Shown here piece by piece: positions 13,434 to 30,014 of a stretch of DNA of 64,000 nt (its first letter is position 1; each line of letters begins with the position of its first letter). The stretch is from Thermoanaerobaculum aquaticum (lineage in GTDB: Bacteria > Acidobacteriota > Thermoanaerobaculia > Thermoanaerobaculales > Thermoanaerobaculaceae), in the NCBI RefSeq assembly GCF_000687145.1, contig NZ_JMFG01000015.1, positions 1 to 64,000 on the forward strand. Reading direction: 5' to 3'. Below the pieces are notes generated by a model. It was not told the origin of the DNA. It saw only the letters and a list, made by a program, of their open reading frames with translations, and ran no database searches. Made by a program: the position numbers and the translations under genes.

Positions 13434-14219
13434 TTACCCAGTATAGGCGGTGTGGCAAGCCCCGGTGAGGCAGGCCAAGAGGATCCCGCAGGCTACGGCC
13501 ACGTTCAGGGACTCCACCCCGTGGGCCAGCGGGACGGTTACCGAATGGGTCACGCCAGCGGCAAGCTCGGGGTCCAAACCCTGGCCCTCGTTGCCTAAAG
13601 CGAGCACCAACGGCCGCTGGGGTTGCCACTGCGAAAGCGGCGTGCCACCGGAAGCCGCGGCAGCTACCCAGCTGTAGCGGTTGCTGGTCCAGTGCCGAAG
13701 CCGCGTAAATGGAAAGTCGCGAAGCACGGGGAAAAACAGGCTTGTTCCGGCGGAGGCCCGCAGCGCCTTGGGAGAAAAGGGGTTGGCGCAACCCGGCGAG
13801 CAAACCACGGAGGAAGCCCCCAGCGCTGCGGCTACCCGCACCACCGCGCCCACGTTGGCAGGGTCCTGCACGCGATCCAAGTACACGATGAGGTCCCCCT
13901 GAGGCTCTTCCCAGTGAGGCACTGGAAACACGGCCACCACGCCCTGGGTGTGCTGGGTGGGTGCCAGGCGCTCCAACACCGAAGCGGGGAGCTGGAAGCA
14001 GGGGACCCTGGCCGAAAGACTTGCAAGCTCGGGATCATGGGTTAGCGCTTGCGCAACCTCCTCGGAGGCAAAAACCGCTTCGGGGGAAAGGCCTCGCCGC
14101 CATAAATCGCGGATGAGTTTCAAACCGTCCACCAGCGTGCGGTGCTCGTCCTTGCCTTGAGCGATGCTGCGCAACGCCGCCACACGGGGGTTGTGCTTGC
14201 CTACAGAGGTCCACGCCAT
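13434..14219 (-). CDS. TrmH/SpoU-family RNA 2'-O-ribose methyltransferase
   Basis: 261 residues. AdoMet-dependent methylation of a ribose in tRNA or rRNA. The three SPOUT motifs are visible: LIVYLDRVQDPANVGAVVRVAAALGASSVVC, LVLALGNEGQGLDPEL and VPLAHGVESLNVAVACGILLACL. An N-terminal substrate-binding region (VAALRSIAQGKDEHRTLVDGLKLIRDL) matches RlmB/TsnR-type enzymes. Which nucleotide is modified cannot be told. ATG at 14219 fits the family beginning. No ribosome binding site precedes it, and CAAACT lies 6 bp upstream, a weak match to the leaderless -10 pattern seen elsewhere in the window. It ends 14 bp upstream of the eRF1-like gene, so the two may be co-transcribed. Confidence 0.9.
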   Translation of the reverse strand: MAWTSVGKHNPRVAALRSIAQGKDEHRTLVDGLKLIRDLWRRGLSPEAVFASEEVAQALTHDPELASLSARVPCFQLPASVLERLAPTQHTQGVVAVFPVPHWEEPQGDLIVYLDRVQDPANVGAVVRVAAALGASSVVCSPGCANPFSPKALRASAGTSLFFPVLRDFPFTRLRHWTSNRYSWVAAAASGGTPLSQWQPQRPLVLALGNEGQGLDPELAAGVTHSVTVPLAHGVESLNVAVACGILLACLTGACHTAYTG

Positions 14220-14283
14220 AGGCTTAGTTTGCCACGCAAGGCCGAGTTGCGCTGGACCGCCGGGTGTGGGAACATAACAGAGC

Positions 14284-21558: not shown

Positions 21559-22510
21559 GATTCTGCTGGAAGGCCGGGGGTTGCACCTGGCCTTTGCCCC
21601 CCGGGGTGGAAGGGGCGTGCCAGTATTTGGCCATGAGGGAGTGGTGGCGCTTTGCGACGTTTCCGTAGCGGTGGAGGCAGGGGAGGTGGTGAAGGTGCTG
21701 GCCTGCCTGGAAGGCGCCAACGCCGGTGAGGTTTACTGGCAAGGCTTGCGTGTGGATCATCTGCCCGAAAGCCAGCGCCGCCCTTTTCGCCACCTGGTGC
21801 AGGTGGTATTCCAGGAGCCGGGAAGCTCCTTCAACCCCCGGCATACCGTGGGCTTTGCCCTGCGCGAAGCCCTGCACCGGTCAAAAAAGCGGTCGGGAAA
21901 CGACGAAGCTTTCCAGCGGGAAAGGCTGGTCCAGCTCTTTTCTTTGGTGGGCTTTCCCTTTTCCGAAGAGATGCTTGCCCGGCGCATCTCCGAGTTTTCC
22001 GGTGGGCAGCGGCAGCGCTTGAGCTTGGTACGGGCCCTGGCCGCCGAGCCAAGAGTCCTGCTGCTGGACGAACCGGTGGCCTCGCTGGACGTGCCGGTCC
22101 GCCGGCGGTTCTTGGATTCCCTGGCGGAGCTGGTGGCCAGCACCGGCCTGGCCGTGCTCCTGGTGACCCACGACCTGAGCATCCTGGACGGACTGGCCAG
22201 CCGCGTGGTGGTGTTGCTTTCGGGGCGGGTCGTGGAGGAAGGTCCCTGGGGCGAGGTGAAGCGCTCGCCCATGCACCCTTACACCCGCGCTTTGCTGGAC
22301 GCCTCGGAAAACGTGCTGGGCTTTCGCCACTTTTTCGTGCCGGCGCCTTCCGGTTGTCCCTTTCGCCTGGCCTGCCCATGGGCCTCTCCGGCGTGCCTCG
22401 CCAAGCCCCGCTTAGAGGCTTCAGGCGAACGCCGGGTGGCTTGTTTTCACCCGTTGTCCGGAAACATTTCTCGTGAAAAACTCGTACAAACCCAACGTGA
22501 GGGAGGTTGA
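21551..22510 (+). CDS. OppF-like ABC ATPase lacking its Walker A motif
   Basis: 319 residues, ATG overlapping the upstream stop by 8 bp. The OppF pattern is intact except in one place. After the expected lead-in strand (ALCDVSVAVEAGEVV, residues 33-47) the sequence jumps to KVLACLEGANAGEVYWQG. About 14 residues including GxxGxGKS are missing compared with family members, and the frame is kept. Q-loop (VVFQEPGSSFNPRHTVG), signature FSGGQRQR (from Ser150), Walker B VLLLDEP (Asp173, Glu174), H-switch His207 and the C-terminal Cys motif (GCPFRLACPWASPAC) are all present. Without the P-loop it should not bind ATP normally. It is either a recent in-frame deletion, a degenerate partner subunit, or an assembly error. 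Confidence 0.88.
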   Translation: MGEILLEGRGLHLAFAPRGGRGVPVFGHEGVVALCDVSVAVEAGEVVKVLACLEGANAGEVYWQGLRVDHLPESQRRPFRHLVQVVFQEPGSSFNPRHTVGFALREALHRSKKRSGNDEAFQRERLVQLFSLVGFPFSEEMLARRISEFSGGQRQRLSLVRALAAEPRVLLLDEPVASLDVPVRRRFLDSLAELVASTGLAVLLVTHDLSILDGLASRVVVLLSGRVVEEGPWGEVKRSPMHPYTRALLDASENVLGFRHFFVPAPSGCPFRLACPWASPACLAKPRLEASGERRVACFHPLSGNISREKLVQTQREGG

Positions 22511-22511
22511 C

Positions 22512-24188
22512 GTGGCTGGAAACCGATTCTTTCCGCTTGTGCTTCTGGCTGTTTTTGCCATCCCCGGCTCCGCTGGGGCCCAACAGCAAGCCGTGGAGAC
22601 AACGTCGGGCACCCAAGTTCGCGGGCAGCGCCTGGCACCCGAACGCCAGCTCACCTTGAGCTTGCGGGAAGCCACGGAAATGGCCCTGAAGCACAACATC
22701 AACCTGGAAATCTCTCGCCTCTCCTTGGCTTCCGCGTCCCAGGGGGTGCTGGCGGCCAGCGGGGTGTTCGACCCTTTTGTCAGGGTTGACTTTTCCGAAA
22801 GCTCCTCAGAAAGCCCGGCCACCAACCAGCTGGTGGGGGCCCAGGTGAACAAGCAGGACCGTCGTACCTTCAACCTCAACCTGGGTACGCTTTTGCCCAC
22901 CGGTGGCCAGGCGACGGTGGGCTGGACCAACACCCGCAGCAAGACCAACTCCACGTTCTTCTTCCTCAATCCCTCGTACAACTCGGGCTTGACTTTTTCC
23001 GTAAGCCAGCCGCTGCTCCGCTCTTTTGGTACCGACGTCAACCGCGCCCGCATCGAAATTGCCCGCAAGAACCGCCACTTGAGCTTGCTGGACTTTGAAC
23101 GGCTGGTGATCACCACCCTCCAGCAGGTGGAAAGCGCCTACTGGAACCTGGTGTACGCCCGGGAAAACCTGAAGGTGAAGCAGCAGTCCCTGAAGCTCGC
23201 TCAGGACCTTCTGGAGCAGACCCGCATCCGCGTGCGGGTGGGCACATCGGCTCCCATTGACATCGTGCAGTCGGAAGCCACGGTGGCAGCGCGGGAGCAG
23301 GACATCATCATTGCCGAAAACGCGGTGCAAGCGGCCGCGGACAACCTCAAGATCCTGCTTGGGTTTGAAGATCCCCAGGACTTCCTGGCGGAAATTGTGC
23401 CCACCGATAGCCTGCAGGCGGTACCGGAGCCTGTGGATTTCCAGAAGGCCGTGCAAACCGCCTTGGAGCGGCGCCCGGAGCTGAAAGCCAAGCAAGTACA
23501 AAGCGAAATCGTGGAGCAAAACCTGCTTCTGGCACGCAGCGCGCTTTTGCCACAGCTGGACTGGGGCGTGAACTACGGGTTTGTGGGTGTAGGGGGGACG
23601 TTCACCCAGCGGGATTCCCGCACCGGCCAAATCGTGGCGGTGATCCCCGGCAACTGGGACGACGCCCTCAAGCAAATCCGCGACCGGGACTACGCCCAGT
23701 GGTCCACCACCCTAACCTTTAGCTACTCCCTGGGCAACAACCAGGCCAAGGCGCAGTTGGCCCAGCGTCGCTTTGAGCTGGCGGCCGCGCAACAAGCCCT
23801 GGCGGCCCAGAGGCAGTCGGTGATCGCCGAGGTCCGGGCGGCCGTCCGCAACCTGGAAGCGTCAGCCAAAGCCATTGCCGCGGCGGTGAAGGCCCGGGAG
23901 TTGGCCGAGCGCAACCTGGAGGCCGAGCTTAAGAAGTTCGAAAACGGCATGTCCACCAACTACCAGGTGCTCAAGATCCAGGAGGACCTGGCTGCCGCGC
24001 AAGTGGCCGAGCTGCAGGCGCGGGTGGCCTACCGCCAATCCATGGTGGCCTACCAGGTGGCGGTGGGGACGCTCCTGGACACCATGGGCATTCAGCTCGC
24101 CGACACCGTTCCTGAACCCGAGGTCCACACCTACTGGAAGGACGTGCCGTTCCTCCAGCTTTCCCACTGGACCAGCGAGGAAAGGTAA
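22512..24188 (+). CDS. TolC-family outer-membrane efflux protein
   Basis: 558 residues from a GTG 1 bp after the preceding stop. GGGAGG precedes it and a good signal peptide begins there (FFPLVLLAVFAIPGSAGAQ). Two OEP repeats with long helical hairpins are visible (SLREATEMALKHNINLEISRLSLASASQGVLAASGVFDPFV, LVYARENLKVKQQSLKLAQDLLEQTRIRVRVGTSAPIDIVQSEATVAAREQDI, then the second repeat ending AELQARVAYRQSMVAYQVAVGTLLDTMG). It forms the outer-membrane channel of a tripartite exporter. It heads a five-gene export operon with the HlyD-type adaptor and MacB-type ATPase and permease downstream. Confidence 0.93.
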   Translation: MAGNRFFPLVLLAVFAIPGSAGAQQQAVETTSGTQVRGQRLAPERQLTLSLREATEMALKHNINLEISRLSLASASQGVLAASGVFDPFVRVDFSESSSESPATNQLVGAQVNKQDRRTFNLNLGTLLPTGGQATVGWTNTRSKTNSTFFFLNPSYNSGLTFSVSQPLLRSFGTDVNRARIEIARKNRHLSLLDFERLVITTLQQVESAYWNLVYARENLKVKQQSLKLAQDLLEQTRIRVRVGTSAPIDIVQSEATVAAREQDIIIAENAVQAAADNLKILLGFEDPQDFLAEIVPTDSLQAVPEPVDFQKAVQTALERRPELKAKQVQSEIVEQNLLLARSALLPQLDWGVNYGFVGVGGTFTQRDSRTGQIVAVIPGNWDDALKQIRDRDYAQWSTTLTFSYSLGNNQAKAQLAQRRFELAAAQQALAAQRQSVIAEVRAAVRNLEASAKAIAAAVKARELAERNLEAELKKFENGMSTNYQVLKIQEDLAAAQVAELQARVAYRQSMVAYQVAVGTLLDTMGIQLADTVPEPEVHTYWKDVPFLQLSHWTSEER

Positions 24189-24198
24189 GGAGGCAGGT

Positions 24199-24936
24199 AT
24201 GGAAAGCAACCCGCTTGCGGAAAAAGCCCCCGTGGGTGAGTTCTCGGGTAAGGCCCTGGGCCGGGTGTTCCGATGCTTTACCGAGCCGCGCGCGGTGTTT
24301 GCAGAAATTGCGGCGCGGCCCACGTTCTTCTGGGTGCTGCTGCTCACGGTGGTGCTGAGCCTAGGGGTACAGCTGGTGCTTGCCCCGCGCATTGATATGG
24401 AAGCCACCGTGCTCCAGGGGATAAGCCGGGCCGGGAAAGAGATTCCGGAAGAACAGGTGCGGGAAGCGGTGAACACTGCCAACCGTTTCCGCACCTTTGG
24501 CTTGGTGCTGGCCCCTTTGGGTGCCTTGGCGGTGACCTTGCTTTTGGGGGGCGTGTACTTCCTGGGGCTAAAAGTGGCAGGCTCGGAAGCCGAATACCCA
24601 CCGGTGCTTTCGGCGGTGGCCCACGCCGGTTTTCCGCCGGGTCTTACGCAGTCGGTTTTGCTTTCGGTGGTGGCTTCCACCCGCGAGCCGTTTCCCGCCC
24701 AGGAAATCCCCAGGCTCTTGAAGTCCAACGTGGCGGCGTTCTTGCCTGAGGATGCCCCTAGGGTGCTTACGGCCCTGGGTGGTGTTCTGGATGTCTTCAA
24801 CGTTTGGTACTGGCTGCTTCTGGCCTGGGGTTTGGCGGCGGTGGGGGGTGTGTCGCTGCGCAAATCCGCAGGCGCGGTCGCGGTGCTCTGGGGTGCCTGG
24901 GCGCTGCTTCAGGTGGTCCTGGCACTTTTAAGGTAA
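24199..24936 (+). CDS. YIP1-family membrane protein
   Basis: 245 residues, AAGGAGG 5 bp before the ATG. The opening FTEPRAVFAEIAARPTFFWVLLLTVVLSLGVQLVLAP is characteristic of bacterial YIP1-domain proteins. About five transmembrane helices follow (GLVLAPLGALAVTLLLGGVYFLGLKVAG, FPPGLTQSVLLSVV, WYWLLLAWGLAAVGGV, AVAVLWGAWALLQVVLALL). The central loop carries a conserved-looking VAHAGFPPGL. Function in bacteria is not established. Its place between the TolC and adaptor genes, in the same operon, suggests an accessory role in the exporter or coupled expression only. Confidence 0.8.
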   Translation: MESNPLAEKAPVGEFSGKALGRVFRCFTEPRAVFAEIAARPTFFWVLLLTVVLSLGVQLVLAPRIDMEATVLQGISRAGKEIPEEQVREAVNTANRFRTFGLVLAPLGALAVTLLLGGVYFLGLKVAGSEAEYPPVLSAVAHAGFPPGLTQSVLLSVVASTREPFPAQEIPRLLKSNVAAFLPEDAPRVLTALGGVLDVFNVWYWLLLAWGLAAVGGVSLRKSAGAVAVLWGAWALLQVVLALLR

Positions 24937-24940
24937 GCCC

Positions 24941-26137
24941 ATGCGAAAGTTTGGCTTGGCCGTTTTGGCGGTGGTGGTTCTGGGGCTCATCCTCTTTCTT
25001 TCCCTCAAGGGCAACAACGGCAAGGGGGTGGCGGTGGAGGTGGTGGCGGTTTCGCCCCGCACGGTGGTGGCTAAGGTGAAGGCTTCCGGTAACATCAGCC
25101 CCCGAAAGAAGGTGGAAATCCAATCCAAGGTCATTGGCGAAATTGTGGCCCTGCCGTTTCGCGAGGGGGATACGGTGAAGGCCGGAGACGTGGTGGTGGA
25201 AATCGAAAAGAAGCTCTACCAGGCGGCTTGCGATCAAGCCCGGGCAGCCCTGGAGCAAGCCCGGGTGCAACTGGAGCGGGCGCAAGCTGAGCTGGCCAAC
25301 GCCGAGCTGGAGGCCGCCCGCACAGAACGGCTCTTCGCCGAGGGTGTGCTCTCCGAGCAGGCGAGAGACCGGGCGCGGCTTTCCTTGGAGCAAGCGCAGG
25401 TGGCGGTGCGGGCCCAGGAAAGGGCCATTGAGCAAGCCAGCTTTGCCTACCGTCGGGCCCTGGAGGACCTGGACCGCACCACCATTCGCGCCCCCATGGA
25501 CGGTGTGGTGATTGCGCGGCGGGCGGAGGTGGGGGAAACCGCCATCATGGGCACCACCAACTTCCCCGGCTCGGTGCTCATGGTCATCGGCGACCTCTCG
25601 GAGCTGGTGGCAGAGGTGGAGGTTCCGGAGCGGGATGTGGTGCAGCTGAGCCTGGGGCAGGAAGCCGAGGTGAAGGTGGACGCCATCCCCGACGCCTCCT
25701 TTGCTGGCAAGGTAGTGGAGATTGCCTCTTCGGGTACCAAGGTGGGGGACGTGGTGAAGTTCAAGGTCAAGGTGGCTTTAAACCAGCCGGATGCCCGTCT
25801 GAAGCCGGAGATGACCGCTAAAGTGGAAATCACCACCAAGCGGGCGGAAAACGTTTTGGCAGTGCCGCTGCAGGCCGTGCAAACCCGCTTTTTGGACGAC
25901 AAAGGCAAGGAGGTGTTCGGTCAAGCCACCGGTCGGGAGGTGGAGGTGGTTTACCTGTTCGAGCGGGGCCGTGCGGTCCGCCGGGAGGTGAAAACCGGAG
26001 TCCAGGACGAGCTTTACGTGGAAATCGGCGAAGGCTTGGCAGCAGGGGAGAAGGTCATCGCCGGGCCGTATAAGACCCTGCGAACCCTCAAGGACGGCGA
26101 CGCCGTGCACGAGGAAAAACCGGGAAAGAAGGGGTAG
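24941..26137 (+). CDS. HlyD/MacA-type periplasmic adaptor subunit
   Basis: 398 residues. An N-terminal membrane anchor (FGLAVLAVVVLGLILFLSL) leads into the first half of the barrel and lipoyl domain (GNISPRKKVEIQSKVIGEIVALPFREGDTVKAGDVVVEIE). A long coiled coil follows at about residues 95-175 (AALEQARVQLERAQAELANAELEAARTERLFAEGVLSEQARDRARLSLEQAQ), then DLDRTTIRAPMDGVVIARRAEVGET and the beta-barrel. It links the inner-membrane MacB-like pump to TolC. The gene starts 4 bp after the YIP1 stop. Its stop lies inside the 17-bp sequence duplicated around the hicBA cassette. Confidence 0.93.
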   Translation: MRKFGLAVLAVVVLGLILFLSLKGNNGKGVAVEVVAVSPRTVVAKVKASGNISPRKKVEIQSKVIGEIVALPFREGDTVKAGDVVVEIEKKLYQAACDQARAALEQARVQLERAQAELANAELEAARTERLFAEGVLSEQARDRARLSLEQAQVAVRAQERAIEQASFAYRRALEDLDRTTIRAPMDGVVIARRAEVGETAIMGTTNFPGSVLMVIGDLSELVAEVEVPERDVVQLSLGQEAEVKVDAIPDASFAGKVVEIASSGTKVGDVVKFKVKVALNQPDARLKPEMTAKVEITTKRAENVLAVPLQAVQTRFLDDKGKEVFGQATGREVEVVYLFERGRAVRREVKTGVQDELYVEIGEGLAAGEKVIAGPYKTLRTLKDGDAVHEEKPGKKG

Positions 26138-26145
26138 GAGGAACC
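26129..26145 (+). repeat. 17-bp direct repeat, copy 1
   Basis: AAGGGGTAGGAGGAACC, containing the stop codon of the HlyD-type gene and a ribosome-binding-site-like GGAGGA. The same 17 bases recur at 26684-26700, 555 bp downstream. Together they bracket the hicBA cassette. Confidence 0.9.
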
Positions 26146-26262
26146 CAGGCGGTGACGAACCTGAGCCAAACGTTGGAGTTCCGCGGCAAGGTGGTCGTGC
26201 TATGTTAGGGCTTGAAAGGCTTATTAGGGTTTAGCAATGGGCGCCGGCAAGGAGCGACGGGC

Positions 26263-26454
26263 ATGAGCAAAATTAGGTACGTTTACTGGCAAGAAGACGA
26301 TGTTTGGCTTGGCTACCTGGAAGAGTTCCCGGACTATTGGACGCAAGGTTCAACCAGGGAAGAGTTGGAGGAAAACTTACGCGACATTTTCCACGAGCTC
26401 ACCAGCGGCTCGATTCCCTGCGTACGGAAAGTGGCCGAGCTTGAGGTGGCGTGA
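26263..26454 (+). CDS. hicB: HicB-like antitoxin (short form)
   Basis: 63 residues, ATG start. HicB N-terminal partial RNase H-like fold: RYVYWQEDDVWLGYLEEFPDYWTQGSTREELEENLRDIFHELTSG. It neutralises the adjacent HicA. The protein ends where longer HicB proteins carry a ribbon-helix-helix or HTH DNA-binding domain, so autoregulation is doubtful. It precedes hicA and overlaps it by 4 bp (GTGA). The 117 bp between the first repeat copy and this gene hold only a short GTG-initiated 18-codon frame of no clear meaning. Confidence 0.85.
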   Translation: MSKIRYVYWQEDDVWLGYLEEFPDYWTQGSTREELEENLRDIFHELTSGSIPCVRKVAELEVA

Positions 26455-26678
26455 AGCGCAAGGATCTGATTCGCGAGCTGGAACAGATGGGGTGCATCCT
26501 CATTCGTCACGGTGCGAGGCACGATTGGTACCAAAACCCCAAGACCAAGGTCTCGCAGCCCGTTCCTCGCCACGGCGAAATCAAGGAAACGTTGGCCAGG
26601 CACATCATCAAGACGCTTAAGGGCGAAAACCCGCGCGGAGGGTCAAACGTCAATGAAGCTGGGGACGAACCAAGGTAG
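26451..26678 (+). CDS. hicA: HicA-like mRNA interferase toxin
   Basis: 75 residues, GTG start overlapping the hicB stop. Double-stranded RNA-binding fold with the HicA pattern: KRKDLIRELEQMGCILIRHGARHDWYQNPKTKVSQPVPRHGEIKETLARHIIKTL. The catalytic His lies in the RHGARHDWY segment. It cleaves mRNA when free of HicB. The last 15 residues (GGSNVNEAGDEPR) look like read-through beyond the conserved domain. The gene ends 5 bp before the second repeat copy. The cassette sits between the adaptor and the ATPase genes of the exporter. Confidence 0.88.
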   Translation: MKRKDLIRELEQMGCILIRHGARHDWYQNPKTKVSQPVPRHGEIKETLARHIIKTLKGENPRGGSNVNEAGDEPR

Positions 26679-26683
26679 GCAAA

Positions 26684-26700
26684 AAGGGGTAGGAGGAACC
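26684..26700 (+). repeat. 17-bp direct repeat, copy 2
   Basis: Identical to 26129-26145. This copy supplies the GGAGGA ribosome binding site (26691-26696) for the GTG at 26705. A vestigial in-frame GGG TAG of the adaptor gene end is also preserved here. Confidence 0.9.
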
Positions 26701-26704
26701 GCAG

Positions 26705-27385
26705 GTGCTCATCGAGCTTGAAAACGTCGTGAAGGTTTACGACATGGGGGCGGTGGCGGTGCAGGCGCTCCGTGGAGTGAGCCTCCAGGTGGAAAAAGGC
26801 GAGTATGTGGCGATCATGGGCCCTTCCGGCTCAGGAAAGTCCACGCTCATGAACATCATCGGTTGCCTGGACACGCCCACCTCGGGGAGCTATCGCCTTA
26901 ACGGGCAGCTGGTCAACGAGCTCACCGACGATGAGCTGGCCCGCATTCGCAACCAGGAAATTGGCTTTGTGTTCCAAACCTTTAACCTCCTGCCGCGAGC
27001 TTCCGCCCTGGAAAACGTGGAGGTCCCCCTCATTTACGCTGGGGTGCCGCGGGCGGAGCGGCACCGCCGGGCCAGGGAAATGCTGGAGAGGGTGGGGCTG
27101 GGCGATCGCATCCACCACCAGCCCAACGAGCTTTCCGGAGGCCAGCGGCAGCGGGTGGCCATTGCCCGGGCCCTGGTGAACAACCCCTCGCTGCTTTTGG
27201 CCGATGAACCCACCGGCAACCTGGACTCACGCACCGGGGCGGAAATCATGGAGCTCTTCGATCAGCTCAACCGCGAAGGGCACACCATCGTTCTGGTCAC
27301 CCATGAGGAGGACATTGCCGCCCACGCCCGCCGTATCGTGCGGTTGCGGGACGGCCAAATCCTGGACGACCGGCGGAAGGGTTAA
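26705..27385 (+). CDS. MacB/LolD-type ABC transporter ATPase
   Basis: 226 residues, GTG start. Complete: Walker [21 protein letters not shown]-loop [26 protein letters not shown], signature [15 protein letters not shown], Walker [17 protein letters not shown] and H-loop [22 protein letters not shown]. The sequence pattern is that of macrolide/lipoprotein-export ATPases (MacB N-domain, LolD). It powers the permease encoded immediately downstream, with the HlyD-type adaptor and TolC channel encoded upstream. Confidence 0.95.
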
Positions 27386-28600
27386 ATGTTCTTCGAAAAC
27401 CTCCGCATGGCCCTGCGCTCCATTGCCGCTCACAAGCTGCGCTCGGTCCTGACCACCCTGGGCATCATCATCGGTGTTGCTGCCGTCATTGGCGTGGTCT
27501 CCATCGTTCAGGGCTTAAACTTCTGGATTGCCGGGCAGTTGGAAGGTGTGGGTGCCACATACATCATGGTTTTCCCCGAACGGGACCCCAACAACCCCGA
27601 TATTGCCGGAAGGGAAGTGCAGCTCACCTACGAAGACGGGCAAGCCATCCTGGAGCGGGTGCCGGAAATCGTGGCCTTTACCCCCATTTACTTCCAGGGT
27701 GAGCGGGTGCGCTACGGCAAGCGCACCTCCACGCCGTTCCTTTTGGGTGTGGGCGCCAGCTACCAGGAGGTGGTCAACCACTGGGTGGCCCGCGGTCGCT
27801 TTTTTTCCGATTTGGATTTGGCCAACCACGCTCGGGTTTGCCTGGTGGGGGAAAAGCTCATTGAGGACCTGGGTCTCGGGGCCGAGCCTTTGGGCAAGGA
27901 CATCCAAATCGGGCGGGTGGTGTTTACGGTCATCGGCGTGATGGAGCAAAAAGGGCAGTTCCTGGGTCAGGACCGGGACCGCGTGGTGATCATCCCCTTT
28001 TCCACCGCCCGGGAAATTTACGGTGAAAACGCCGCCAAGCAAATCCGCCTGGACTTCAAGGCCCGCTCCCCGGAAGACGTGGATCGCGCCAAGGACCTCA
28101 TGACCGATATTCTGCGACGGAGGCACGGCTTGCGGGCCGACCAGGGCAACGACTTCCGCATCATGCTGCAGGAGGAACTGCGCAAAACCACCTCCACCAT
28201 TTTGGGCGGCATTACCCAGGTGGTCGGAGCGGTGGTGGGCATTGCTCTCCTCGTGGGCGGCATTGGCATCATGAACATCATGCTGGTTTCGGTCACCGAG
28301 CGCACCCGGGAAATTGGCGTGCGCAAAGCGGTGGGGGCCCGGAGGCGCGACATCCTGATGCAGTTCCTCATCGAGGCGGTGTTGCTTTCCGCCATTGGCG
28401 GGGCCATTGGCATCCTCTTCGGCTGGTTCCTGGGCTTTCTGGGTGCCAAGGCCATCCCCGGCTTTCCCGCCGCCCACGTGCCCCTCTGGGCGGTTTTATT
28501 GGGCTTTGGCTTTGCCTCGGCGGTAGGCATCTTCTTTGGCATTTATCCTGCCGCCAAGGCCGCTTCGTTGAACCCCATTGAGGCCCTACGCTACGAGTAG
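27386..28600 (+). CDS. MacB-type ABC transporter permease
   Basis: 404 residues, ATG directly abutting the ATPase stop. MacB-like topology: an N-terminal helix (MALRSIAAHKLRSVLTTLGIIIGVAAVIGVVSI), a large periplasmic domain (residues 50-265), then three C-terminal helices of the FtsX domain (ITQVVGAVVGIALLVGGIGIMNIMLVSVTERTREIGVRKAVGA, FLIEAVLLSAIGGAIGILFGWFLGFLG, VLLGFGFASAVGIFFGIYPAAKAASLNPIEALRYE). The export operon of five pump genes plus the inserted hicBA ends here. The substrate is not evident. Confidence 0.94.
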   Translation: MFFENLRMALRSIAAHKLRSVLTTLGIIIGVAAVIGVVSIVQGLNFWIAGQLEGVGATYIMVFPERDPNNPDIAGREVQLTYEDGQAILERVPEIVAFTPIYFQGERVRYGKRTSTPFLLGVGASYQEVVNHWVARGRFFSDLDLANHARVCLVGEKLIEDLGLGAEPLGKDIQIGRVVFTVIGVMEQKGQFLGQDRDRVVIIPFSTAREIYGENAAKQIRLDFKARSPEDVDRAKDLMTDILRRRHGLRADQGNDFRIMLQEELRKTTSTILGGITQVVGAVVGIALLVGGIGIMNIMLVSVTERTREIGVRKAVGARRRDILMQFLIEAVLLSAIGGAIGILFGWFLGFLGAKAIPGFPAAHVPLWAVLLGFGFASAVGIFFGIYPAAKAASLNPIEALRYE

Positions 28601-28627
28601 AGCCGAAAGCTTACCGGCAGGAGTAAC

Positions 28628-29290
28628 CTAAGAGGCGGCTGCTGCCGCTTGCCCATCGGCCACTAGGGAGTAAATCCCGCCGGCGGTGAAGCGCACGACG
28701 TGCTCTAAGAGCTTGTCCCCATACGCCCGATAAAACTGTGCTTTCTTGGGCAAGAACCAATGAAGTTGCAAAACGTGAACCAGCTGTGCCACGAAGGAGT
28801 AGGCCACAAGCGGAACTTGAGCCTCATCCAATTCGGGCACAGCAGAAATCAGAGCTTTAGTTAAAAGCTCGTTTACCGGAGTCACCAATTCCCGTTGCAT
28901 GACTTCCGTGGGCAAGAGCTGCTGTGCCATTTCCCGAAGCAAAAGCTGAAGACGAACCTCAGCCCTCTCCTCGGTAAGGAGAGGATCAAGGCAAGCCCGG
29001 GCAAAAGAGATCAACACCGCTTCCAGGGGGGGACGGCCGTTGTGTTCGGCCAGAACCGTCTGGAGGCTTGCCACCCGCCGCTGGGCCAGCTCGCGGAAGG
29101 TGCGGACCAGCACCACCTCGTAAAGCTTTTCCTTGCTGCCGAAGTGGTATGAAATACAGGCTACGTTGCAACGCGCCCCCTTGGCCAGCTCCCGCACCGT
29201 GGTATCGGAAAAGCCTTTGAGCGCAAAAAGCTCGGCAGCAACCTCCAGCAACCGCTGTCGGGTTTCCTCACCAACCGGTGGTGCAATCAC
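28628..29290 (-). CDS. TetR-family transcriptional repressor
   Basis: 220 residues, GTG start. The N-terminal HTH is typical: ETRQRLLEVAAELFALKGFSDTTVRELAKGARCNVACISYHFGSKEKLYEVV. The C-terminal domain resembles CecR (YbiH/DUF1956-type) regulators. It is convergent with the export operon, ending 28 bp from it, and TetR repressors of this group often control MacAB/HlyD-type exporters. A 22-bp imperfect palindrome 23 bp upstream of its start suggests autoregulation. Confidence 0.9.
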   Translation of the reverse strand: MIAPPVGEETRQRLLEVAAELFALKGFSDTTVRELAKGARCNVACISYHFGSKEKLYEVVLVRTFRELAQRRVASLQTVLAEHNGRPPLEAVLISFARACLDPLLTEERAEVRLQLLLREMAQQLLPTEVMQRELVTPVNELLTKALISAVPELDEAQVPLVAYSFVAQLVHVLQLHWFLPKKAQFYRAYGDKLLEHVVRFTAGGIYSLVADGQAAAAAS

Positions 29291-29313
29291 ACCTGCCCCC
29301 TTTCGAGAATAAT

Positions 29314-29335
29314 TTTAATCAAACGATTGCTTAAA
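29314..29335. promoter_or_regulatory. Candidate TetR operator
   Basis: Imperfect inverted repeat of half-sites TTTAATCAA and TTGCTTAAA separated by 4 bp (ACGA). Eight of nine positions pair. It lies in an AT-rich patch 23 bp ahead of the tetR start, next to a TATTCT hexamer that could serve as its -10 box. Operators of TetR-type pump regulators have this size and form. Confidence 0.5.
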
Positions 29336-29384
29336 GTCAAACACGCAGGCCTTACAAGAGCGGCCCTGGTAAGCGGCGGTTTTC

Positions 29385-30014
29385 TCAGCGAAGCAGAGGC
29401 TGCAGCACCGCCACCCGCCAGGCCTCGGCGCAAGCCCATTTGAGCAGCACGTCAGCCACGCAAAGCGCAAGGCCGGCAAGCCACCAGCGCCGGTTGCGCT
29501 TGAGCGAGGCAAGCCCGCCACCAATGAGGGGCTCGCTGAGCGCCACGCCCAAAAGCAAAAAGCCCACCACCCGCAGCAGGGCCCAGGGGTGCCATCCGGC
29601 AACAAGGGCCCAGGGAGTTTGGCTCAAAAGCGCCAGGCCCCCGGTGTAGGCACCCATCCAGCCGAAAAGCACGGTGGCTAAGGCCAAGCCGCCCAGACCT
29701 CCGGTGGCCAGCGTGAGCAGCAGGAAAGCGGTCAGGTGAGTGAGGTGCTGGGGGATAAAGCAGGAAGGTGTGCTTTCGCAGCCCACCCCTGTTTGCACCC
29801 AGGCCAGCATGCCCTGGGCGTAGGTTTGCGCTCCCGGGAAAAGCCGGCCACACAACCCCGGCCAGCGGGTTTCCAGTAAGCCCAGGGCCAGGGCGAAAGC
29901 TACAAACCACGTCCCCACCGCCAGGGTTGCTGCCATGCGGCGTCCTTTCCCCAGAAACCTTCGCAAAGCAGCCCAGGGAGGGGCAGCGAGCAGCAAAACC
30001 AAAAGCCAGCGCAT
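29385..30014 (-). CDS. Polytopic membrane protein of unknown function
   Basis: 209 residues, very hydrophobic. Five or more transmembrane segments: LLVLLLAAPPWAAL, ATLAVGTWFVAFALALGLL, LTHLTAFLLLTLATGGLGGLALATVLFGWMGAYTGGLALL, ALLRVVGFLLLGVALSEPLIGG and WWLAGLALCVADVLLKWA. An exposed loop carries two cysteines (GCESTPSCFIPQH) that could form a disulphide. I do not recognise a family. The ATG has no ribosome binding site. CACAAT lies 6 bp upstream, a weak match to the leaderless pattern. It is divergent from the SCP2 operon. Confidence 0.7.
   Translation of the reverse strand: MRWLLVLLLAAPPWAALRRFLGKGRRMAATLAVGTWFVAFALALGLLETRWPGLCGRLFPGAQTYAQGMLAWVQTGVGCESTPSCFIPQHLTHLTAFLLLTLATGGLGGLALATVLFGWMGAYTGGLALLSQTPWALVAGWHPWALLRVVGFLLLGVALSEPLIGGGLASLKRNRRWWLAGLALCVADVLLKWACAEAWRVAVLQPLLR

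Follow-up and report, generated by a model that had tools for sequence, protein, structure and literature searches.

A hicBA toxin-antitoxin cassette is located between the adaptor gene and the ATPase gene of a MacAB-type exporter operon in Thermoanaerobaculum aquaticum, and we consider it well supported that the cassette is a derived insertion with target duplication, since relatives carry an empty site at this position and since subtracting the cassette and one repeat copy restores the spacing found in one of them. The window, i.e., the whole stretch of 64,000 nucleotides that was analyzed, belongs to one contig (C15) of a 2.66-Mb genome assembled in 68 contigs. Its exporter cluster at 22.5-28.6 kb encodes a TolC-like protein, a Yip1-domain protein, a HlyD/MacA-type adaptor, an ABC ATPase and a MacB-type permease (Table 1). 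No Rfam match was obtained across 24000-29500, and no sigma-70-like promoter was identified in 26000-26800.

Table 1. Features of the exporter operon and of the inserted cassette, in window coordinates.
Feature	Position	Strand	Support or remark
TolC-like outer-membrane efflux protein gene, first gene of the cluster	22473..24188 (start codon provisional)	+	Pfam OEP PF02321, E 2e-50
Yip1-domain membrane protein gene	24199..24936	+	Pfam PF04893, E 2e-11
HlyD/MacA-type periplasmic adaptor gene	24941..26137	+	Pfam HlyD_D23, E 7e-21; NCBIfam RND_mfp above cut-off
Repeat copy 1: native adaptor 3' end, stop, Shine-Dalgarno-like AGGAGG	26123..26145	+	Exact 17-mer 26129-26145
Cassette leader, 117 bp, with 18-aa ORF	26146..26262	+	No homologue within this genome, among relatives or near other hicBA loci
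hicB, short 63-aa UPF0150-like putative antitoxin without room for a DNA-binding domain	26263..26454	+	Pfam PF21748; relatives compared
hicA, 75-aa predicted mRNA-interferase-type toxin	26451..26678	+	Pfam HicA_toxin PF07927
Repeat copy 2: relic GKKG-stop and AGGAGG now serving the ATPase gene	26678..26700	+	Exact 17-mer 26684-26700
MacB/LolD-type ABC ATPase gene	26705..27385	+	Pfam ABC_tran, E 1e-37; directly behind the adaptor gene in relatives
MacB-type permease gene	27386..28600	+	Pfam MacB_PCD and FtsX

Insertion site and flanking repeat

Empty sites were identified in two genomes of the same genus, where the ATPase gene follows the adaptor gene after 12 nt (G001) and 17 nt (G002), and the two genes are also adjacent without hicBA in seven more distant genomes (G003, G004, G005, G018, G020, G031, and G032), meaning that hicBA separates them in none of the nine relatives. 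These empty-site genomes represent other species and not strains, with roughly 70-90% DNA identity in 150-bp steps. BLAST segments against G001 and G002 were collinear with the window up to position 26120 or 26131 and resumed at 26705, and the two repeat copies are located exactly at the breakpoints set by the empty sites. Moreover, hicA was not found anywhere in G001 or G002, and the cassette DNA gave only short, insignificant matches in six relatives. Subtracting the cassette together with one repeat copy leaves the adaptor stop codon, 12 nt and the GTG start of the ATPase gene, which equals the spacing in G001 and bears out the claim of an earlier note on this DNA that such an excision would restore a normal operon joint. 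Relatives lacking hicBA yet carrying both repeat copies, which would have spoken against an insertion, were looked for and not found. It is conceivable that the operon originally contained hicBA and that the relatives lost it when the two repeats recombined, as a deletion between direct repeats would give exactly the joint that they show; however, this would require repeated losses (in G001-G005, G018, G020, G031, and G032), none of the nine genomes retains hicBA at the joint, and the nearest hicBA homologues belong to other phyla, making ancestral presence extremely improbable.

The flanking repeat consists of an exact 17-mer, AAGGGGTAGGAGGAACC, occurring twice with a start-to-start distance of 555 bp. 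While the 17 shared bases and their distance are as described in the earlier note, the length of the duplication was understated there, because the similarity reaches 23 bp with 21 of 23 positions identical. Likewise, the repeats do flank hicB and hicA, but they do not enclose exactly these genes as had been proposed, since a 117-bp leader and a 15-codon extension of hicA are included. Copy 1 forms the final codons and the stop of the adaptor gene. Both mismatches between the copies are synonymous and fall on third codon positions, and each copy reads Gly-Lys-Lys-Gly-stop. The AGGAGG of copy 2 is positioned 8 bases before the ATPase GTG, in agreement with the proposal that the second copy retains a relic of the adaptor stop and supplies the ribosome binding site of the ATPase gene. 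As judged from this arrangement, it is plausible that the insertion is neutral with respect to polarity.

Exactly two perfect copies of the 17-mer exist in the 2.66-Mb genome, and the closest other site differs from it at 2 positions. Exact repeats of at least 17 bp at a spacing of 100-1500 bp are not in themselves rare, with roughly a dozen independent instances over 464 kb (approximately once per 39 kb), and repeats with such spacing are in this genome mostly paralogous coding sequence. When the adaptor-end sequence was compared with 897 ORF-start contexts of the genome, at most 10 bp were shared, except for one context sharing 17 bp, which is taken to be that of the ATPase gene. A chance match of the 17-mer was rejected on the basis of its genome-wide occurrence and the ORF-start comparison, and a shared Shine-Dalgarno context alone was rejected as well, given that other starts share at most 10 bp.

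Content and origin of the cassette

Only hicB, hicA and an 18-aa ORF are present between the repeats, and neither a transposase nor an integrase accompanies them, as previously noted. The HicA protein matched PF07927 (E 6e-11, 42.7 bits; above the gathering score of 27), consistent with the HicA-family toxin of a HicBA type II system, while none of the NCBIfam and PADLOC models matched it. HicB matched the UPF0150-like family PF21748 with a score below the curated cut-off (E 7e-5, 23.2 bits; cut-off 27.3), and the pairing of hicB with hicA is also conserved in relatives. The GTG start of hicA overlaps the hicB stop by 4 bp, and hicA is single-copy in the genome. The C-terminal approximately 15 codons of hicA (26625-26678) fall outside the conserved family, and their DNA is common to no relative; this extension reads into a 59-bp trailer and stops at the second repeat copy. 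Leader and trailer were shared with nothing examined, neither in the genome nor in relatives or other hicBA loci, and the GC content of the cassette is 0.556 compared to 0.63 for the surroundings. The 18-aa ORF of the leader (VTNLSQTLEFRGKVVVLC, 26152-26208) is now preceded by the ribosome-binding-site-like sequence of copy 1.

Direct repeats exactly at the breakpoints combined with a single-copy empty site are the classic signature of transposition, and an enzyme that was supplied in trans, or whose gene was later deleted, could have left a target-site duplication of 17-23 bp by a staggered break and fill-in. Yet there is no transposase between the repeats, and no pair of inverted repeats was found at the insert ends as is typical of classical transposons and insertion sequences. 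In addition, leader and trailer are shared with no other hicBA locus examined, thus indicating that conserved element ends are lacking, and the repeats at hicBA loci vary in length between about 20 and more than 300 bp, unlike a fixed duplication. We therefore regard transposition as unlikely.

The closest HicA proteins, with 60-80% identity, are scattered among Planctomycetota, Nitrospirae, Deltaproteobacteria-type bacteria, Cyanobacteria and others, and at the DNA level those loci resemble the window only from hicB to hicA (26260-26624). Almost nothing close to the cassette was found in the plasmid and viral collections. The best explanation is that hicBA is a cassette of two genes of foreign origin, acquired after this lineage had split from the same-genus relatives. 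The HicAB modules described in PMC2701414 share with the window the HicA toxin family, an adjacent small HicB, a patchy distribution and horizontal mobility, whereas the window differs in its hicB-hicA order, in a HicB that, with 63 aa, is too small to include a DNA-binding domain and in its position inside an exporter operon.

Sites resembling attC (GCCTAACAAGGCGCTGCACCTGACCGCC...) were observed behind hicA in L087, L273, L089, L094, and L090, either immediately 3' of the gene or some 0.75 kb beyond it, and some members of this hicBA family therefore seem to travel as integron cassettes. Lone hicBA pairs of this family occur in chromosomal integrons, where attC-like sites follow them, in contrast to the window cassette, which has no visible attC and lies outside any cassette array. 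The attC-like site directly 3' of hicA in three loci (L087, L273, and L089) would fit the possibility that the window cassette derives from an integron, as one of its gene cassettes, or from another kind of site-specific system and landed at a secondary site. Nevertheless, visual inspection of the window revealed no attC-like hairpin between hicA and copy 2, the repeat is not attC-like, and insertion by this route is not expected to yield a 23-bp duplication of a gene end, so that we find such an origin very unlikely.

Duplicated gene ends at other hicBA loci

The earlier note had suggested looking for similar flanks around other hicBA loci, and flanking direct repeats were indeed found at 26 of 171 such loci compared to 18 of 431 control gene units (Fisher p = 9e-6). 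When only repeats with at most two copies per locus were counted, the numbers were 23/171 for hicBA and 11/431 for the controls (p 1e-6). The controls were gene units on the same contigs, with up to 18 kb retrieved around each locus, and they were matched only in part; the genes in the survey were simple ORF calls. A first, crude control with random placement overstated the enrichment and was discarded. With an intergenic-matched control the first sample gave p values of 0.05-0.1 and 0.11-0.15, i.e., not clearly significant, and the sample was therefore enlarged with an independent set of hicBA loci drawn from the phyla of two other hosts. As the repeat-positive controls included a HicBA pair (L374), a PIN-domain (VapC-like) pair, a RelE-like/HTH pair, a nucleotidyltransferase gene and IS200-like transposase genes, the true background is lower than 18/431. 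Taken together, the survey, which is significant and imperfectly controlled, suggests that the scar may be general among hicBA loci. Flanking direct repeats were also observed around the PIN-domain pair (L085:1277-1898), the RelE-like/HTH pair (L368:6106-6724) and the nucleotidyltransferase gene (L390:4703-5050), and the duplication scar may not be limited to hicBA.

Some flanking repeats elsewhere turned out to be dispersed repeats or integron attC-like sites behind hicA. Dispersed repeats are involved at L097, L133, L085, L338, and parts of L130, and the flanking repeat of L108 resulted from faulty indexing at the edge of a contig. L075 was rejected as a clean empty-site comparison with G115, as the right flank is not syntenic. 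What looked in many loci like conservation downstream of hicA proved to be hicA itself behind an early stop or frameshift; an apparently truncated or frameshifted hicA, with the remaining coding sequence directly behind the stop, was seen in L098, L129, L110, L119, L116, L149, and L148. The hicAB locus of E. coli K-12 showed no flanking repeat (best 9 bp), which is uninformative because nearly all E. coli genomes contain this region.

Several hicBA loci carry a duplication of the end of a housekeeping gene, e.g., the 3' end of mutM/fpg in L335 and of carB in L075. The closest counterpart is L360 (about 8.5-9.2 kb, reverse strand), where hicBA lies at the ribH-nusB junction and 74 bp of the ribH 3' end are duplicated with one mismatch; nusB follows directly behind copy 2, an exact parallel to the geometry of the window. 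Read from their translations, the duplicated 3' ends in L349, L319, and L374 presumably belong to a TonB-receptor-like, an inositol-monophosphatase-like and an alaS-like gene, respectively. In L374 a second, different HicBA pair (13829-14258) lies within a 118-bp duplication of a gene 3' end, the codon differences being mostly synonymous. In L130 of Thiocapsa an 80-bp gene start is duplicated, with a single-copy site in the relative G090 that is complicated by later insertions. Repeat lengths at hicBA loci are variable, from about 20 to 317 bp.

Route of entry and its relation to known systems

While the insertion with target duplication is itself well supported, its mechanism is read from sequence comparison, and entry without a recombinase appears likely. 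Specifically, hicBA probably entered the joint as a small piece of DNA carrying homology to the target, with 17-23 bp of the joint becoming duplicated. The DNA would have arrived as a small linear or circularized piece consisting of hicBA and a short stretch matching the end of the adaptor gene, and it may have been joined by host enzymes, without a transposase, through a single crossover or homology-assisted illegitimate recombination. Since the duplicated stop and ribosome-binding site would keep both neighbours readable, the insertion could survive selection, and addiction may then have retained the cassette.

The codon differences between the copies bear on this question. Over ten duplicated gene ends, including that of the window and leaving out L343 (0 synonymous, 6 nonsynonymous) as a doubtful gene call, 34 differences were synonymous and 20 nonsynonymous, an excess with p 2e-4 against a synonymous share of 38%, which is an assumed expectation, and coming mainly from L319, L374, and L133. 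Because a dead copy drifting locally should accumulate mostly nonsynonymous differences, the pattern points to some cases in which the ends had diverged in different lineages before they were joined, and it favours, without proving, the import of homology-carrying DNA over duplication at a staggered cut. For the window alone, two synonymous changes in 23 bp cannot decide between the mechanisms. A purely local duplication, in which a break was repaired with hicBA as filler and the joint was copied by fill-in or template switching into copies identical at birth, would agree with there being only two differences in 23 bp, with the 97-99% identity of the copies in apparently recent cases (mutM, ribH, and the TonB receptor) and with an adaptor gene free of a divergence tract. 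On the other hand, the mostly synonymous differences over the ten gene ends are not expected of a freely drifting dead copy, and we consider local duplication rather unlikely, albeit the strongest competitor of homology-carrying import. No donor-like divergence tract was seen in the adaptor gene of the window, and a diverged donor is thus not supported in this particular case. Moreover, a repeat of 17-23 bp is too short for efficient RecA pairing, which makes a single crossover a poorer explanation for the window than for the cases with longer repeats.

Circularized fragments that integrate through a single crossover are known to produce duplications of 109-950 bp (PMC3240628), and for type VI effector modules an insertion anchored by homology has been put forward (PMC5361080). 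In these accounts of homology-facilitated illegitimate recombination and circularized-fragment crossover, foreign DNA anchored by homology joins a gene end and leaves partial duplications or displaced 3' ends, much as in the window; they were, however, demonstrated in transformation or conjugation or proposed for effector arrays, whereas the window is interpreted from its sequence and has a shorter repeat. The "insertion with long target duplication" of restriction-modification systems (Nobusato et al., 2000, as described in PMC1643837, PMC3874152, and PMC3031569) offers a further parallel: in both instances a small gene set, addictive in the restriction-modification case and presumably so here, stands alone, without a transposase, between direct repeats of variable length, with empty sites in relatives. 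The window shares with that class the single-copy empty site, the target-derived junction repeats and the absence of transposase and integrase, but it concerns a type II toxin-antitoxin pair and its duplication is only 17-23 bp where those are of the order of 100 bp, so that it resembles the class and is no strict member of it. Unlike the restriction-modification case, the insert of the window lies at an operon joint, and the duplicated part carries a stop and a ribosome-binding site. Within the part of the openly licensed literature that was accessible, we found no report of hicAB joined with target duplication or of such an insertion for toxin-antitoxin genes, an absence that is weak evidence.

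Few bacterial genes are as mobile as those of toxin-antitoxin systems, and their lone chromosomal copies often show no vehicle. The idea put forward in the earlier note, that this site may show how solitary toxin-antitoxin genes move, gains support from the recurrence of the scar elsewhere and is not proven by it; the window hints at a route by which lone hicBA cassettes move. This recurring scar, in which one side bears a duplicated gene end, provides a searchable signature and a testable mechanism, and it ties toxin-antitoxin genes to a mode of insertion known for restriction-modification systems. As a tentative generalization, which we hold to be possible but somewhat short of probable, solitary toxin-antitoxin modules may be self-mobile without a recombinase, duplicating the end of a neighbouring gene by a route shared with restriction-modification systems and being tolerated since their neighbours would stay expressed.
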